Assembly: GCA_028278645.1 (NCBI GenBank)
Contig: JANQDZ010000047.1
Coordinates: 186,001 to 250,000 of the forward strand
Direction of reading: 5' to 3'
DNA length: 64,000 bases
From: Longimicrobiales bacterium
GTDB lineage: Bacteria; Gemmatimonadota; Gemmatimonadetes; Longimicrobiales; Gaopeijiaceae
The position numbers and the translations under genes were made by a program. The notes beneath the pieces were generated by a model. The model saw only the letters and a list, made by a program, of their open reading frames with translations. It was not told the origin of the DNA and made no database searches. Shown here piece after piece: positions 5,070 to 52,352 of this stretch (position 1 is its first letter; every line of letters begins with the position of its first letter).

Positions 5070-7844
5070 ATGAGACAGGTGTTTGAAGGGTTCGGGATCC
5101 TTCTTATGATCCTCGCCCCATTCCCAATGGGCGCACCCGCCTTGGCTGCCCAGGACGCAGATTCGGCGGCGGAAGCCACGTCCCAGGAAGGTCCGAGGCC
5201 CCTGACGCTGGAGGACTACGGTCGCTGGTCCACCATAGGCCAAGTGGCCCTCTCGGCCGATGGCCGTTGGATGACGTATGCGTACGCACCCAATGAAGGG
5301 GATTCAAAGCTCTACCTAAGGGACCTGGACGACCTCACTGGAGACCCGGTGGAGCTGTCGGAGAACGGGACCGGCCCCCAATTCAGTGCCGACTCGAGGT
5401 GGCTGGCCTACACCGTCTCTTCCGGGGAAGGGGAGGATCGGACCCGGACGCTTTTCCTCATGGACCTCGAATCTGAGGATCGATGGGAAGTGGATAATCC
5501 CTCGTCCTCTTCTTTCTCCGACGACTCTCGGTGGTTCGCGGCGCACAAGTCTCGTCCCGGCGAAGACGACGGGCCGAGGGGGGCAGACTTGATCCTTCAC
5601 GACCTCGGGGAGGGATCCATTACCAACATCGGGAACGTCGCCGAGGTGGCCTTCAACAAGGGCAGCACCCACATGGCGTATACCGTCGACGCCGAAGGTA
5701 AGGCCGGCAATGGGGTTTTCCTCTTGGAGTTGGGTAGTGGCCGGATGCTCCGCCTCGATACTGGAGACTTCTTCTACCAGGGGATCTCTTGGCACGAAGA
5801 AGGCAGGGCCCTCGCGGTCCTGCGAGGAAATGAGCCCGATGGTTTGGTTCTACGGGAGAATCAGCTGTTGACCTTCCCAACCCCTAGTTCCGACGCCCAG
5901 ATCTACGATCCGGTTACCGATTCGTCTTTCCCGGAGGGTTACGTCATCAGTGAGAACCGGGCCCCGTCCTGGAGCGAGGACGCTGAGAGGGTCTTCGTCG
6001 GAATCAAGGCACAACAAGAGGAGCTGGAGGAAGGCGAAGGACCGAAGGCGGATGTGGTGGTTTGGCACTGGAAGGACAAGAGGGTCCAGAGTCAGCAAGA
6101 GGTACAAGCCGGGAGGGACCGACGGACCACCTATCTCTCAGTGGTGAACCTGGACGGTTCGCGTTTCTTCCGGCTCGCGACGGAGGAGATGGAACAGGTT
6201 CAACTCACTCAGAATGGCCGGTGGGCAGTGGGTTTCGACGACTCGGAGTACTGGACCGATCGTGACCACGAGCGCAATCGAAACGATGTCTTCCGAATTG
6301 ATCCGACGACCGGTGACAGAGCCCTCATCACCGAGGCCCTTATCACAAGCATGGGGACTTCGCCGGATTCGAGATGGTTCCTCTATTGGCAGGACCAGAA
6401 GGTCCAAGCCTATGCCCTGGACTTGGGCTGGACTGTAGACCTCACCGCCGCCGCAGGGGGGATCGACTTCGAGAACAAGGAGTTTGATCGACCGGTGGAG
6501 AAACCCACCTACGGCGTCGGGGGTTGGTCCACCGACGGCGAGGCGGTCTTCTTGAACCACAAATACGACGTTTGGCAGGTGCCGCTGAACGGGGGAGAGG
6601 CCGTCAATCTCACTGGTGGCATGGGAGCCCGGGACGAGATCCGGTTCAGGATCATGGACCTGGACCCGGAGGATGACGGAATTGAAACGTCGGATCCGGT
6701 CCTCCTTTCGGCCTACGGGGAGTGGACAAAGAAGTCCGGTTACTTCCAGGCGAATCCAGGGCGGGCTCCGAAAGAGCTTCTCTTCGAGGACGCGATGTTG
6801 GGCACGGCCGGCTTCCGTGGGTCGGGAATCCGCAAGGCAAAGGACGCGGACCGAGTCCTCTTTACCCGACAAACCTTCGTTGACTTTCCAGACTTCTGGG
6901 TGACCGACTCGAGGTTCACCGCCCCGCTCAAGGTCACGGACGCCAACCCCCAGCAGGCGGAGTTCCTATGGGGAAGCCGGGTCCTGGTCGACTACACCGA
7001 TAATCGAGGCCACGACCTTCAAGCGACGCTGGCTCTTCCGGCCAACTACGAGGCGGGAACTCGTTATCCGATGATCATCTACTTTTACGAGAAGATGAGT
7101 CAGCGGCACCACGAGTACTCCAGGCCGACCTATGATGATCGGCCGCACATGTCCACGTACGCCAGTAATGGATATCTGGTTCTGATGCCTGACATCGTCT
7201 ACGACATGGGGTATCCTGGGAGCTCTTCCCTGGACGACGTGGTTTCGGCGGCCCAGGCGGCCATCGATCAAGGGTATGCCGACCCTGACCGGATCTGCCT
7301 CCAGGGGCATAGCTGGGGAGGGTACGAATCCTCATTCATCGTGACCCAGACCGATATGTTCGCCTGTGTGGTGACTGGCGCGCCCCTCACGAATCTCGTA
7401 TCCATGCACAATATCCTGTACAGACAATCCGGAAGCCCGAATGCCAATCTCATCGAATGGGGGCAGGGGCGGATGGACACGAGCCCGTTCCATGATTTGG
7501 ACCGCTATATCGCTGAATCACCGGTGCACAACGTGCAGGGAATCACGACGCCATTCCTTATCCTGCATGGGACGGATGACGGGGCGGTGGATTGGAACCA
7601 AGGGTTGGAGTACTACATCGCGGCCCGACGCATGGGGAAAGAGGTCATCCTCCTTTCCTACCCGGGAGAGCCGCACCACCTGAGCCGAGAGGAAAACCAG
7701 AAGGACTTTCAGATCAGAATGAAGCAGTACTTCGATCACTACTTAAAGGACGCTCCTGCTCCGACCTGGATGAAAGACGGCGTGCCCTTCCTCGAGAAAG
7801 ATCGGATCGGGCCAACGGCTGGGCTGGAAAAGGGCGGGATCTAG
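5070..7844 (+). CDS. Exported S9 family peptidase (prolyl oligopeptidase type)
   Basis: This is a serine peptidase of the S9 family, likely acting on peptides in the periplasm. From ATG 5070 it is 924 residues long. A signal peptide occupies about residues 1-26 (cut near ALAAQ). Residues about 40-620 form a WD40-like beta-propeller (ALSADGRWMTY, FSADSRWLAY, SPDSRWFLYW). The C-terminal alpha/beta-hydrolase carries the triad Ser748 in GHSWGGY, Asp837 in HGTDDGAV and His869 in GEPHHL. An ATG at 5064 is in frame but sits 1 nt after the AAGGA motif, whereas 5070 has normal spacing. The gene is complete. The downstream PPIase gene starts 38 nt after it, suggesting an operon whose second product helps fold exported proteins. 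Confidence 0.93.
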   Translation: MRQVFEGFGILLMILAPFPMGAPALAAQDADSAAEATSQEGPRPLTLEDYGRWSTIGQVALSADGRWMTYAYAPNEGDSKLYLRDLDDLTGDPVELSENGTGPQFSADSRWLAYTVSSGEGEDRTRTLFLMDLESEDRWEVDNPSSSSFSDDSRWFAAHKSRPGEDDGPRGADLILHDLGEGSITNIGNVAEVAFNKGSTHMAYTVDAEGKAGNGVFLLELGSGRMLRLDTGDFFYQGISWHEEGRALAVLRGNEPDGLVLRENQLLTFPTPSSDAQIYDPVTDSSFPEGYVISENRAPSWSEDAERVFVGIKAQQEELEEGEGPKADVVVWHWKDKRVQSQQEVQAGRDRRTTYLSVVNLDGSRFFRLATEEMEQVQLTQNGRWAVGFDDSEYWTDRDHERNRNDVFRIDPTTGDRALITEALITSMGTSPDSRWFLYWQDQKVQAYALDLGWTVDLTAAAGGIDFENKEFDRPVEKPTYGVGGWSTDGEAVFLNHKYDVWQVPLNGGEAVNLTGGMGARDEIRFRIMDLDPEDDGIETSDPVLLSAYGEWTKKSGYFQANPGRAPKELLFEDAMLGTAGFRGSGIRKAKDADRVLFTRQTFVDFPDFWVTDSRFTAPLKVTDANPQQAEFLWGSRVLVDYTDNRGHDLQATLALPANYEAGTRYPMIIYFYEKMSQRHHEYSRPTYDDRPHMSTYASNGYLVLMPDIVYDMGYPGSSSLDDVVSAAQAAIDQGYADPDRICLQGHSWGGYESSFIVTQTDMFACVVTGAPLTNLVSMHNILYRQSGSPNANLIEWGQGRMDTSPFHDLDRYIAESPVHNVQGITTPFLILHGTDDGAVDWNQGLEYYIAARRMGKEVILLSYPGEPHHLSREENQKDFQIRMKQYFDHYLKDAPAPTWMKDGVPFLEKDRIGPTAGLEKGGI

Positions 7845-44126: not shown

Positions 44127-44199
44127 GGTTCTTCCAAAATAAGGGTGAGCTGGATCGCCATACCGGTTCCCGGTTGACGAAAGATACTCCTGAACTTAA

Positions 44200-44213
44200 T
44201 GTGCATATGCACA
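44200..44213. promoter_or_regulatory. Perfect 14-bp palindrome upstream of the DUF134-NifX pair
   Basis: TGTGCATATGCACA is fully symmetric and sits 27 bp upstream of the DUF134 start codon, in the divergent region with the thioesterase gene. DUF134 proteins carry a helix-turn-helix, so self-regulation through this site is a plausible inference. No experimental support is known to me. Confidence 0.5.
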
Positions 44214-44240
44214 AAATGGAACAGGAGAGGCAATTTACCC

Positions 44241-44528
44241 ATGCCGAGACCAAGAAAAGAACGGAAGTGCCGCCATTTCGAGGGGGACAGGGTTTTTAAA
44301 CCCCGCAGCATCCCCATGCCGGAGCTGGACGTTCTCTTCCTCGGCGAAGACGAGCTCGAGGCCCTCCGCCTTTGTGATGTGGAGGGCCTACATCAAGCCC
44401 TGGCCGGGGATCGAATGGGAATTTCCAGAGGCACGGTCCAGCGGTTGTTGAAGTCCGGGCGATCGAAGCTGGTCCGTGCCCTTGTCGAGAACGCGGCTCT
44501 GGTAATAGGGCCCAAAGGAGAGTCATAG
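44241..44528 (+). CDS. DUF134 family helix-turn-helix protein
   Basis: This 95-residue protein begins MPRPRKERKC, as DUF134 proteins do, then has LDVLFLGEDELEALRLCDVEGLHQALAGDRMGISRGTVQRLLKSGRSKLVRAL, with a sigma-region-4-like helix-turn-helix (residues about 40-75). Members are thought to bind DNA and commonly sit next to NifX-like genes, as here. ATG 44241 has CAGGAGAGG 10 nt upstream; an earlier in-frame ATG lies inside the 14-bp palindrome and is disfavoured. The NifX-like gene starts directly after its stop codon. Confidence 0.9.
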   Translation: MPRPRKERKCRHFEGDRVFKPRSIPMPELDVLFLGEDELEALRLCDVEGLHQALAGDRMGISRGTVQRLLKSGRSKLVRALVENAALVIGPKGES

Positions 44529-44990
44529 ATGAAAATCTGCATACCTACCTTGGATGATCGCGGGCTGGAGGGTCAGCCCTCGGATCACTTCGGAAGTGCC
44601 CCTTTTTTTACCTTCGTCGACACGGATACCGGGGAGGTTGATGTCCATCGAAATGGGGGCGCGAGCCATGTTCACGGCTCATGTCGACCCGTGGAATCGT
44701 TGGGCGCTCACTCGGTGGACGCAATTCTCTGCAGGGGGCTGGGCAGGAGGGCCTTCTCTCGGTTTGAGAATGGTGGGATCGGCGTATTTGTAACCCTGGA
44801 GAAGGATGTGGAAGCCACGGTGAAAGCCTTCGCGGCAGGCCGGCTCCAAAAGCTATCGTCGGAGGAAGCTTGCCACGGGCATGGGCACGGGCACAGGGGC
44901 CAATATGCTCGAGGAGGAATGGGTGGCCATTCGGGTGCTGGAGGTTGCGGCCACGACTATAATCAGAGGCCGAACAGGGGAAGAGACTGA
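44529..44990 (+). CDS. NifX/NifB C-terminal-like protein with His/Gly-rich tail
   Basis: This 153-residue protein has a dinitrogenase-cofactor-biosynthesis fold (residues about 1-110: KICIPTLDDRGLEGQPSDHFGSAPFFTFVDTDTG and VDAILCRGLGRRAFSRFENGGIGVFV). The C-terminal 45 residues are rich in His and Gly (CHGHGHGHRGQYARGGMGGHSGAGGCGHD), suggesting metal binding. Such proteins are widespread in organisms without nitrogenase. Metal or Fe-S handling is a reasonable guess, not an established role. It directly follows the DUF134 gene. A second, tail-less homologue heads the redox operon at 51981. Confidence 0.88.
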   Translation: MKICIPTLDDRGLEGQPSDHFGSAPFFTFVDTDTGEVDVHRNGGASHVHGSCRPVESLGAHSVDAILCRGLGRRAFSRFENGGIGVFVTLEKDVEATVKAFAAGRLQKLSSEEACHGHGHGHRGQYARGGMGGHSGAGGCGHDYNQRPNRGRD

Positions 44991-45027: not shown

Positions 45028-46224
45028 ATGAAGACTTCTTCGGAGAAAGCACTAAACATCGATACCCAGTGCATCCATGCCGGATCGGAGCCGGATCCGG
45101 CTTTTGGTGCTGCTGTTCCACCGATCTTTCAGACTTCCACGTTTGTATTCAAAACACCTGAGGAGGGTGCGGCCCGTTTCGCCGGGGAGGACCCGGGGTA
45201 CATCTACACCCGCATGGGTAACCCCACCACGAGTGCGCTGGAAGAGGCGGTGGCTACCCTGGAAGGGGGCACGTCGGCCCTCGCGACTTCGTCAGGCATG
45301 GCAGCGGTTTCGACGGTCTTCTTCGCCTTGCTTTCCGCAGGGGACCACGTCGTATGCAGCCAGTCCGTTTATGGCCCATCCCGCGTGATCCTGGAGAGGG
45401 ATTTTTCCAGGTTCGGCGTCGAGGCTTCCATGGTGGACACCTCCGACCTGGAGGTTCTCCGTGCAACGGTCACGGACCGGACACGAGTGGTTTTCGTCGA
45501 GACGCCTGCCAATCCCACCTTGGCCATTACCGATTTAGCCGAGGCCGCGGATATCGCTCGTTCCGTTGGGGCGGTGCTGGTCGTGGACAACACCTTCATG
45601 AGTCCAGTCCTCCAACAACCCTTCCGGTTCGGCGCCGATATCGTCCTCCACTCGGTGACGAAGTTTTTGAATGGGCATACCGATGTGGTTGGGGGCGTCC
45701 TGGTATTCCAGGACGACGAGTTGATGGCGAAGGTCCGTGGGGTCCTACACTACCTCGGTGGGACCATGGATCCCCATCAGGCATTCCTGGTCCACCGTGG
45801 TATAAAAACCCTCGCCATGCGGGTACGGACGGCTCAAGACAACGCTCGGGCCATCGCCGACTTGCTGTCCGGCCACTCGGAGGTGGATTGGGTTCGGTAC
45901 CCGGGTTTGCCTGGGCACCCGCAGGCGGACCTCATCTCCCGTCAGATGGAAGGCCCTGGGTCGTTGATTTCGTTCCAGCTCAGGGGTGGTTTTGATGCCG
46001 GGAAACAGGTTTTGAGCGCCGTTCGCCTGCCGGCCTTGGCTGTATCCCTGGGGGGCGTCGAGAGCTTGATTCAGCACCCGGCGTCAATGACACACGCAGC
46101 GATGAAACCTCAGGACAGGGAAGAGGCCGGGATCACTGACGGACTGGTGAGGCTGGCGGTGGGATGTGAGGATGCTGAGGATCTTGTGTCCGACTTGAAG
46201 CAGGCTTTGGACGGGCTTTCCTGA
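45028..46224 (+). CDS. PLP-dependent trans-sulfuration enzyme (Cys/Met metabolism)
   Basis: This 398-residue enzyme belongs to the cystathionine gamma-synthase/O-acylhomoserine sulfhydrylase/gamma-lyase family. It shows YTRMGNPTTSALEEAVATLEGG, SSGMAAVSTVFFAL, FVETPANPT, VVDNTFMSPV and the Schiff-base Lys in LHSVTKFLNGHTDVVGG. The C-terminal SLGGVESLIQHPASMTHAAM is present. The Cys typical of methionine gamma-lyase after the active-site YG is absent (YGPS), so that activity is less likely. The precise reaction among the family cannot be read from sequence. Its last 92 bp overlap the 3' end of the convergent ATP-grasp-SET gene. Confidence 0.9.
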   Translation: MKTSSEKALNIDTQCIHAGSEPDPAFGAAVPPIFQTSTFVFKTPEEGAARFAGEDPGYIYTRMGNPTTSALEEAVATLEGGTSALATSSGMAAVSTVFFALLSAGDHVVCSQSVYGPSRVILERDFSRFGVEASMVDTSDLEVLRATVTDRTRVVFVETPANPTLAITDLAEAADIARSVGAVLVVDNTFMSPVLQQPFRFGADIVLHSVTKFLNGHTDVVGGVLVFQDDELMAKVRGVLHYLGGTMDPHQAFLVHRGIKTLAMRVRTAQDNARAIADLLSGHSEVDWVRYPGLPGHPQADLISRQMEGPGSLISFQLRGGFDAGKQVLSAVRLPALAVSLGGVESLIQHPASMTHAAMKPQDREEAGITDGLVRLAVGCEDAEDLVSDLKQALDGLS

Positions 46225-47692
46225 CCTTTTTCGTTGCCGTACGCTTGGTTCGAACGTAGTCGGAGATGTGGTCCCCATATGCGTCCATGAACCCTTGTAG
46301 GTGGTCGTCCTCCCGCACCGCACCTCGGCAGGAGGAGGAGCCACAGGCGCATTCGAATGGTTTGAGGATGTTGTTCCCGTAGGTGGCGTAGTCTACCCGG
46401 ATCTCCTCCCCCGATTGAATGGGCCGCCGAGCGACGAGATCGAGGCCCTCCAGCCAGGCGTTGGGATCACAGGAGTGGTGGATCGGACGCCAGTTCTCCG
46501 GGTCCTCGTCCCAGGTCACCCACACCTCATCAGTGAGGGGCCACGCATACCCTCTGAACCAGTCCTGCTCCCGGGGACCCCAGTGGTTCTCAACTCGTGA
46601 TCGAGTGACGATGGAATGGGGAGTGCCCTCGAAGGCCATGATGGTCTCGCCCGCCTCGATGCTCCGGTTGGCGAAAACCGCGTACCCGTTACCCGGGATC
46701 GGAAGGGTTTCCCACCCCTGCTGGTTCCGGGCGTGGCGTGCGAGGGCTGCTCGGATCAGCAGGTCGGTGAACCCTTGGTGCCCAGCGGGATCATTGAGCA
46801 ACGCCAGGTCCGCGCTTCCCGGGTCCGACTCGGCGTAGTAGACACCACAGTTCGGGTTGATCTCCAACATGTAGAGGCCACCATCCGAGTCCATTCTCAG
46901 GTCGCATCGGCCGAACGATGCTCCCCGCATACCCAGGAAGAAGTCCGACGCGGCTTGGCGGAGACGCTCCCCCAACTCACCGTCGTGAAGAGGGACCTCC
47001 TTCATCGTGTGGTAGTCTTTCCACTTCAGGTCGGAGTGCTTGAAGGATTCGCCGTTCGGAAATACGAACTCCACAGGGACGTAGGTCACCGGGTTGGCCA
47101 GGTCGTCCGGGTTCTCCGCGACCAAGACCGTGAACTCACGGCCTTCGACGAACTCCTCGATAAGGGCCGCCCCGTACTTCTCCAACAGAGGGCGGGTGCG
47201 GTATCGAAGGGCAAACGTCGTTTCCACCCTCGAGGTCTTCCACAAGTCGATGCTGCTATAGCTGGAAGGGTGTTTGACGATAAGGGGGAAACGTAGGGTC
47301 TCAGCGGCTCGGGAGATGTCCTCTTCTGTTCTGGCCAGCACGTAGTCGGGGAATCCGATCCCCCAAGCCGAGCAAACCCGCTTCATCGCCTCCCGGCTGG
47401 GTTCAAAAAACTCCGATGTCGCCCCGGTGAAAGGGACATTCAGCTGTTCGAGCGTCTGCACGACTTCGATACCCGGGCTCTCCTCATCCCACGCCCCGGC
47501 GCAGAGATTGAAGAACAGGTCGTAGCCTTTGCGAGAGAGCTGGTTGAGGCGAGCGACCCCACCCTCTCTCGTGAGGCCTTCCACCGTCCAATCGTGGGCT
47601 TTTAAGAACGGTGTAGGATCCACCCTCCAGTCATCGACCGGTGCCTCCCAGGCAGGGCAATCATACACGTCGTCCAGAACACAAACTTTCAT
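46133..47692 (-). CDS. ATP-grasp ligase fused to a SET-domain protein methyltransferase
   Basis: This 519-residue protein joins two enzymes. Residues about 1-325 are an ATP-grasp of the D-Ala-D-Ala ligase type. They show the ATP-contact Lys in PLIVKHPSS (K140), IEEFVEGREFTV (E180 region), RCDLRMDSDGG and the metal-ligand EINPN (277-281). Residues about 334-460 are a SET domain with HHSCDPNAW (405-413) in place of NHSC, GEEIRVDYATYG (428-439) and a post-SET Cys set, C448, C450 and C455 (CACGSSSC). A basic tail (480-519) is antisense to the end of the PLP enzyme. The ligase could form a peptide-like bond and the SET domain methylate Lys, perhaps on the same protein; substrates are unknown. Confidence 0.85.
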   Translation of the reverse strand: MKVCVLDDVYDCPAWEAPVDDWRVDPTPFLKAHDWTVEGLTREGGVARLNQLSRKGYDLFFNLCAGAWDEESPGIEVVQTLEQLNVPFTGATSEFFEPSREAMKRVCSAWGIGFPDYVLARTEEDISRAAETLRFPLIVKHPSSYSSIDLWKTSRVETTFALRYRTRPLLEKYGAALIEEFVEGREFTVLVAENPDDLANPVTYVPVEFVFPNGESFKHSDLKWKDYHTMKEVPLHDGELGERLRQAASDFFLGMRGASFGRCDLRMDSDGGLYMLEINPNCGVYYAESDPGSADLALLNDPAGHQGFTDLLIRAALARHARNQQGWETLPIPGNGYAVFANRSIEAGETIMAFEGTPHSIVTRSRVENHWGPREQDWFRGYAWPLTDEVWVTWDEDPENWRPIHHSCDPNAWLEGLDLVARRPIQSGEEIRVDYATYGNNILKPFECACGSSSCRGAVREDDHLQGFMDAYGDHISDYVRTKRTATKKVRKARPKPASSRTQDPQHPHIPPPASPVRQ

Positions 47693-51949: not shown

Positions 51950-51980
51950 CTTGTATAGGCCAGATTCATGGAGGTCGAAC

Positions 51981-52352
51981 GTGAGAGTCGCAATACCGCG
52001 AATGGGAGAAACCGTGGCACCCTGCTTCGAATACTGTGCCACGATGGCCATCTTCGACGTCGCCGAGTCAGGCGTCGTCGACCAGGTCGACTTTCCCCTT
52101 CAGAGCCGGGAGCCTTTTGACCGGGTCCGCCTTCTGAGAGACCAGGAGGTGGATACCGTGATCTGTGGCGGAATCCAGGCCTTCTATGAGGACCTGCTGA
52201 AGGCCAGCGGACTCCAGGTGATTTCATGGGTCGAAGGGACCGTGGACGACCTCCTGGCCCTCTTCATCAGAGGGGAGCTCGTAGCGGGTACTGAGCTCCC
52301 CCTGGATTGCGGGCCGGACTTCTTTCCGATGAAAAGAATGACGGAGCACTGA
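51981..52352 (+). CDS. NifX/NifB C-terminal-like protein
   Basis: This 123-residue protein of the dinitrogenase iron-molybdenum cofactor family begins RVAIPRMGETVAPCFEYCATMAIFDV and contains VDTVICGGIQAFYEDLLKASGLQVISWVEGTVDDLL. Cys14 and Cys18 or nearby residues might bind a metal or cluster. The start is GTG 51981, preceded by GGAGG; a TTG at 51951 is upstream of the predicted transcription start and is rejected. It is the first gene of the sigma-54-type operon, 3 nt before the next start. The role is unknown; metal delivery or cluster handling for the following Fe-S proteins is inference. Confidence 0.85.
   Translation: MRVAIPRMGETVAPCFEYCATMAIFDVAESGVVDQVDFPLQSREPFDRVRLLRDQEVDTVICGGIQAFYEDLLKASGLQVISWVEGTVDDLLALFIRGELVAGTELPLDCGPDFFPMKRMTEH

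Follow-up and report, generated by a model that had tools for sequence, protein, structure and literature searches.

The gene and its product

The window analysed here is a stretch of 64,000 nucleotides from a Longimicrobiales bacterium (Gemmatimonadota). On its minus strand, an open reading frame (ORF) at 46133..47692, with an ATG start at 47692, encodes a protein of 519 aa in which an ATP-grasp ligase is fused to a SET-type methyltransferase domain. An earlier interpretation, drawn from the letters of the window and called here the sequence-only reading, had placed such a fusion at this position. Its coordinates are right and both domains score over their Pfam cut-offs; the strand is minus, the plus-strand frame over the same interval being full of stops.

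The N-terminal part, residues 1-318 (46739..47692; all features of the protein are given in minus-strand coordinates), is an ATP-grasp of the D-alanine--D-alanine ligase (Ddl) type, as judged by Pfam, by invariant residues and by an AlphaFold/Foldseek match to DdlB. Its Dala_Dala_lig_C domain at residues 120-283 scores 51.6 bits against a cut-off of 24 and, together with conserved ATP/Mg ligands, places the protein in the Ddl-type ATP-grasp superfamily. The SET domain with its post-SET region follows at residues 323-475 (46268..46726) and was recognised by Pfam (PF00856, residues 336-435, 41.3 bits against a gathering cut-off of 22.4), by alignment and by AlphaFold/Foldseek matches to ASH1L, MLL1 and BurB. 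A score over the cut-off, an HxC motif and a tyrosine of catalytic type identify it as a SET-domain protein.

The motifs pointed out by the sequence-only reading were all recovered by alignment. HHSCDPNAW contains H405-H406-S407-C408 (46469..46480), a version of the NHSC motif for contact with S-adenosylmethionine (SAM) in which His replaces Asn. GEEIRVDY ends in Val433-Asp434-Tyr435 (46388..46396), Tyr435 being the catalytic-type tyrosine and Val occupying the Phe/Tyr-switch position. The post-SET Cys triplet, C448-x-C450...C455, lies at 46328..46351. The remaining tail, residues 476-519 (46136..46267), is basic and Pro-rich and is modelled with low confidence towards its end. It is the least certain part of the protein, since the last ~30 codons of the gene are overlapped by a convergent gene (45028-46224, plus strand; cystathionine gamma-synthase/methionine gamma-lyase-like by eye), the two genes overlapping tail to tail by 92 bp.

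Compared with a same-genus relative (L032, 89% identical), the ratio of non-synonymous to synonymous substitution rates (dN/dS) comes to 0.017 over the ATP-grasp and 0.106 over the SET half, with synonymous sites near saturation. Purifying selection acts on both halves and, since full-length fusions are moreover present in many genomes, the ORF is not a product of chance.

The ATP-grasp half

In a sequence search of solved structures, residues ~42-300 match Ddl enzymes. The ATP-grasp had been described as complete; this is true of its ATP/Mg machinery. The N-terminal ~40-48 residues align by sequence with no solved Ddl. Nine residues (K104, K140, E179, E186, K223, R262, D264, E277 and N279) are invariant in an alignment of 39 relatives (39/39), and from established knowledge of Ddl we take them to fit ATP/Mg and acyl-phosphate chemistry. 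Position 65 is Ala in the window protein and its sister and Asp in the other 37 of the 39. An AlphaFold model of the fusion, built from the 39 relatives, reached a mean predicted local distance difference test score (pLDDT) of 81.7 and a predicted template modelling score (pTM) of 0.74, and Foldseek placed its ligase half on DdlB (8evz) with an E value of 6e-18.

The protein shares with DdlB (8evy/8evz) the ATP-grasp fold, the Dala_Dala_lig_C domain and the pattern of ATP/Mg residues. It differs in carrying a SET domain, in its unaligned N-terminus and in having K223-Trp224 where the DdlB sequence reads K-Y. Its score on the D-alanine--D-alanine ligase family TIGR01205, ~60 bits, is under the curated cut-off of 245.65. 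The canonical Ddl of the host genome is encoded by a separate gene on contig C102 and attains 285 bits on the same family. Judged by these scores and by the presence of a true Ddl elsewhere in the genome, the ligase half of the fusion is Ddl-like and not the cell-wall Ddl. The sole match to a protein-modifying type of ATP-grasp, the RimK family, is marginal (E 0.036).

The SET half

By sequence, the SET half matches KMT2A, BurB and ASH1L among solved structures. The HxC motif, Tyr435 (Phe in few) and C448/C450/C455 are kept across phyla in an alignment of fused SETs. One aligned position, which from general knowledge of the family we take to be the Phe/Tyr switch of lysine methyltransferases, holds V, L, M or I in all 32 readable fused SETs and Met in BurB; it is Tyr in KMT2A, in Set1 and in each of the 27 ordinary bacterial SETs that could be read. 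The first position of the NHSC motif, on the other hand, varies. It is N in all 14 fused SETs of one Gemmatimonadota family (f5) and neighbouring f4, and among 18 readable fused SETs outside f5 we counted N ten times and H, D, G and R twice each. In BurB the motif starts with Leu92-His93 (LHSC), and His93 is one adenine contact in the structure (PMC12542666). The sequence-only reading had supposed that HHSC might alter the cofactor contact. This does not hold, given the variation across the family and the LHSC of the active BurB, and a lost SAM contact through HHSC is ruled out on the same grounds.

A tree of 75 SETs unites all 34 fused ones (one pair identical) in one clade, with a Shimodaira-Hasegawa-like approximate likelihood ratio (SH-aLRT) support of 97. 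KMT2A/Set1 and 30 ordinary bacterial SETs form a separate group (95), and BurB groups with the SET2 kind (87), apart from the fused SETs. Neither a grouping of fused SETs with SET1/MLL-type lysine methyltransferases (KMTs) nor one with BurB was borne out in this tree, which comes from a quick search, contains a long BurB branch and does not settle which of the two other groups is closest to the fused SETs.

With BurB (9l4t/9l4v) the fused SETs have in common a SET domain with a post-SET Cys cluster, the [D/E]YA motif and an aliphatic switch residue, and the window protein also shares a non-Asn residue before HSC. BurB differs in being a stand-alone tetramer, and near the position of its substrate segment RLHTLQ the fused SETs have YAWPL. 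With SET1/MLL and ASH1L KMTs they share the SET core, the HSC and Tyr motifs and the post-SET region; they differ from these in lacking Phe/Tyr at the switch, in forming a separate clade and in having no pre-SET or histone context.

Distribution and history of the fusion

Full-length fusions were found in Gemmatimonadota, Myxococcota, Acidobacteriota (Terriglobia), Zixiibacteriota, Actinomycetota (Solirubrobacterales) and one 'Proteobacteria' bin (Pseudomonadota). In Gemmatimonadota, 41 of 395 genomes have a member of the family, almost always as a fusion. One fusion lies on a complete chromosome (L040, CP070670), and a plasmid search found no full-length fusion. The Thioflavicoccus plasmid NC_019941 carries a distant ATP-grasp with annotated KamA, SbnA and diaminobutyrate transaminase around it. 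A Chloroflexota-like ATP-grasp on a 3.6-kb contig titled Methylomicrobium sp. (L091) probably reflects a mis-binned contig.

In the ATP-grasp tree, SET-less (solo) proteins nest within fusions. A test on a 33-row tree rejected a branch with the fusions alone on one side (p-AU 0.008 in the approximately unbiased test, for a group picked after the first tree had been seen). The single clade of fused SETs and the nesting of solo forms inside the fusions would, on the simplest reading, point to one fusion followed by at least two SET losses, one putatively in a Planctomycetota/Acidobacteriota/Krumholzibacteriota group and one in Chloroflexota.

Gene neighbourhoods

A constant neighbour was found in f5 and neighbouring f4. 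There, a second Ddl-type ATP-grasp of 360-390 aa is encoded directly upstream of the fusion in 14 of 14 loci, overlapping it by exactly 4 bp in 12 of them and separated by gaps of 34 and 101 bp in the other two. Just upstream of this two-ligase operon, an M15 D-Ala-D-Ala dipeptidase gene (Pfam) lies at L155:10328-11449, with an apparent counterpart, by position and sequence only, at L157:9755-10840.

A second SET, fused or nearby, occurs in seven loci in all. It is fused in L035, L037 and L042, overlaps the fusion by 4 bp in L038, and is found near it in L171; in L161 the two-ligase locus goes on to encode an ABC_membrane_3 protein and then a second SET. The seventh locus, L117, brings together as separate genes a GNAT-like ORF (by eye), a Ddl-like ATP-grasp, a SET, an ATP-binding cassette (ABC) exporter and an orthologue of the upstream ATP-grasp of f5, and this group adjoins a solo, SET-less member of the family. 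Genes for ABC-type membrane proteins adjoin the locus in L042, L117, L153 (an ABC_membrane_3 protein beside the fusion) and L161. The region L042:3866-14518 encodes an ABC transporter, a Cupin_8/JmjC-like protein, the ATP-grasp-SET-SET protein (frame interrupted near 6890), a LicD protein and a 1634-aa thrombospondin-repeat protein.

The second SETs are BurB-like, the copy in L161 scoring 55.5 bits to BurB, well above any KMT. SET2 and the fusion occur in the same genome four times against 0.44 expected (11 and 6 of 149 genomes), a suggestive co-occurrence that involves few independent lineages. Around dispersed SET2 genes we saw nothing in common beyond near relatives. A BurB-like SET also stands alone in the window's genome, on a contig other than that of the window (G000:C103:19914-20342; L118:4912-5412, minus strand), and its neighbours are not common to other such genes.

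A search for a conserved substrate gene near the window or other solitary fusions found none; the only shared gene order was lineage synteny in Chloroflexi. When we looked for precursor peptides of graspetides or other ribosomally synthesized and post-translationally modified peptides (RiPPs), only ATP-grasp, SET and ABC-type genes were consistently conserved as neighbours among ORFs of at least 70 aa.

In the window, a same-strand 804-aa permease-like ORF lies 180 bp upstream of the fusion gene. Small flanking ORFs at 44199-44990 and 51951-52352 resemble DUF134 and NifX/NifB-type proteins, and Fe-S oxidoreductase-like genes run from 52356 onward (all by eye). In five loci from relatives of the same order or family (L119, L120, L122, L125 and L126), tandem Ddl-type ATP-grasps stand beside a lysine 2,3-aminomutase-like protein (by eye); these ATP-grasps belong to a different group and were set aside.

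Discussion

The protein may be a bifunctional enzyme that both ligates amino acids and methylates, with a small peptide-like metabolite as its substrate; to this reading we give an even chance. We infer that both halves are active, that they act in sequence on one small substrate, and that the product is exported. In the Ddl-type half, an amino acid or small acid would be activated with ATP at its carboxylate, giving an acyl phosphate, and would then be linked to the amine of another amino acid or of a small peptide. Methyl transfer from SAM, to the ligation product or to one of its building blocks, would fall to the SET half. In Gemmatimonadaceae-like relatives, the translationally coupled upstream ATP-grasp probably attaches a further residue. 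Some loci also include a second SET, of the BurB-like kind, and an ABC-type membrane protein. The end product would be a small methylated peptide-like metabolite.

Ligation and methylation in two steps had been proposed by the sequence-only reading, for a peptide or protein. The two steps remain the best reading, as the fusion recurs, a second ATP-grasp forms a tight operon with it in f5 and f4, and second SETs turn up repeatedly. The favoured target is no longer a lysine or a protein, because the fused SETs make up a separate clade and have no Phe/Tyr switch. Ddl enzymes join free amino acids, and this, with the Ddl match, counts for a small substrate. So does the SET enzyme BurB, whose methyl acceptor is free methionine (PMC12542666).

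Several observations weigh against ligation and methylation of a small metabolite. In the window's own lineage and most other phyla we found no conserved neighbours, exporter or second ATP-grasp. The fused SET resembles KMT2A and ASH1L as much as it does BurB: in sequence it scores 34.0 bits with BurB and 34.9 bits with KMT2A, and in Foldseek the SET alone gave E 4.9e-8 for ASH1L and E 2e-7 for BurB (TM about 0.6), phmmer and Foldseek scores thus being about equal. The SET was modelled separately for this comparison, as the whole model had returned matches to the ATP-grasp half only; the best of its models had a pLDDT of 84.7 and the other four 56-64. Finally, in many relatives no SET lies within about 8 kb of the ATP-grasp, so that the activities are separable and the ATP-grasp can evidently work without SET. 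The sequence-only reading had named separate genes for the two halves in close relatives as a finding that would refute it. This is partly the case, as many relatives lack the SET and L117 has ligases and a SET as separate neighbours. The trees, however, read the solo forms as probable SET losses, and the adjacency in L117 supports a functional link, so that the reading is not refuted.

The main rival is a modifier of proteins: the ATP-grasp would attach an amino acid at the end or on a side chain of a protein or peptide, and the SET would methylate the same protein at a lysine or at its N-terminus. Most SET enzymes known so far act on lysines of proteins, the SET fold is just as close to ASH1L and MLL1, and a solitary gene with no pathway around it suits a dispersed protein target, which is possible in such a setting. 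The eukaryotic TTLL12 is moreover a precedent for joining SET-like and ligase-like parts (PMC3520985). We nevertheless hold this explanation to be unlikely. The ATP-grasp is of the Ddl type and in f5 is coupled to a second such ligase, the switch residue is aliphatic in every fused SET read, and among neighbouring ORFs of at least 70 aa no conserved gene for a substrate or precursor turned up.

TTLL12 also bears on the idea that the SET half is no longer a methyltransferase and binds SAM or product to regulate or scaffold the ligase, as it was reported to have no histone methyltransferase (HMTase) activity in vitro (PMC3520985). The SET half does evolve faster than the ATP-grasp, and on at least two occasions it was apparently lost from proteins that kept the ATP-grasp. 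Yet it is still clearly under purifying selection and retains its tyrosine (or Phe in few), HxC motif and Cys triplet across phyla, which makes a non-catalytic role improbable. Still more doubtful, indeed very improbable, is a cell-wall variant, in which a D-Ala-D-X ligase would alter peptidoglycan and the SET would methylate the dipeptide or a wall component. Ddl homology and the M15 dipeptidase-type gene upstream in L155 and L157 speak for it, but this neighbour is limited to one genus, the TIGR01205 score is far under the cut-off in a genome that has a canonical Ddl, and the N-terminal region, which carries part of the first D-Ala site in known Ddl enzymes, does not align. As to two unrelated genes joined by chance or in assembly, the many relatives with an ATP-grasp only could be cited in favour. 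Such an artefact is refuted by selection and by recurrence of the same fusion in independent assemblies from many genera and phyla, a complete chromosome included, with the fused SETs forming one clade.

TTLL12 combines a SET-like with a tubulin-tyrosine-ligase-like (TTL) part and has lost several ATP-binding motifs (PMC3520985). Like the window protein, it has SET-like and ATP-grasp-type halves in one polypeptide, but in the order SET then TTL; the window protein has ATP-grasp then SET, is of the Ddl type with its motifs kept, and gave no TTL match in Pfam. The two fusions are apparently analogous and of independent origin. In the literature searched, which covered subscription papers poorly, we found no description of a bacterial architecture of SET and Ddl-type ATP-grasp.

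What we describe is a real, conserved enzyme architecture made from two known kinds of enzyme, with a distinct SET clade. It is taught that SET domains methylate lysines of proteins, and BurB is the one small-molecule SET enzyme that we found in the literature searched. The fused SETs might represent a third kind of SET methyltransferase, neither histone- nor BurB-type: a tailoring enzyme fused to an amino-acid ligase, making an unknown class of methylated small peptides and, in a single bacterial family, acting alongside a second ligase coupled to it. We put this forward tentatively, its chances being somewhat below even. With a conserved bacterial SET clade physically attached to an amino-acid ligase, the substrate range of SET enzymes would become directly testable, and the clade could lead to a class of peptide metabolites not described before.
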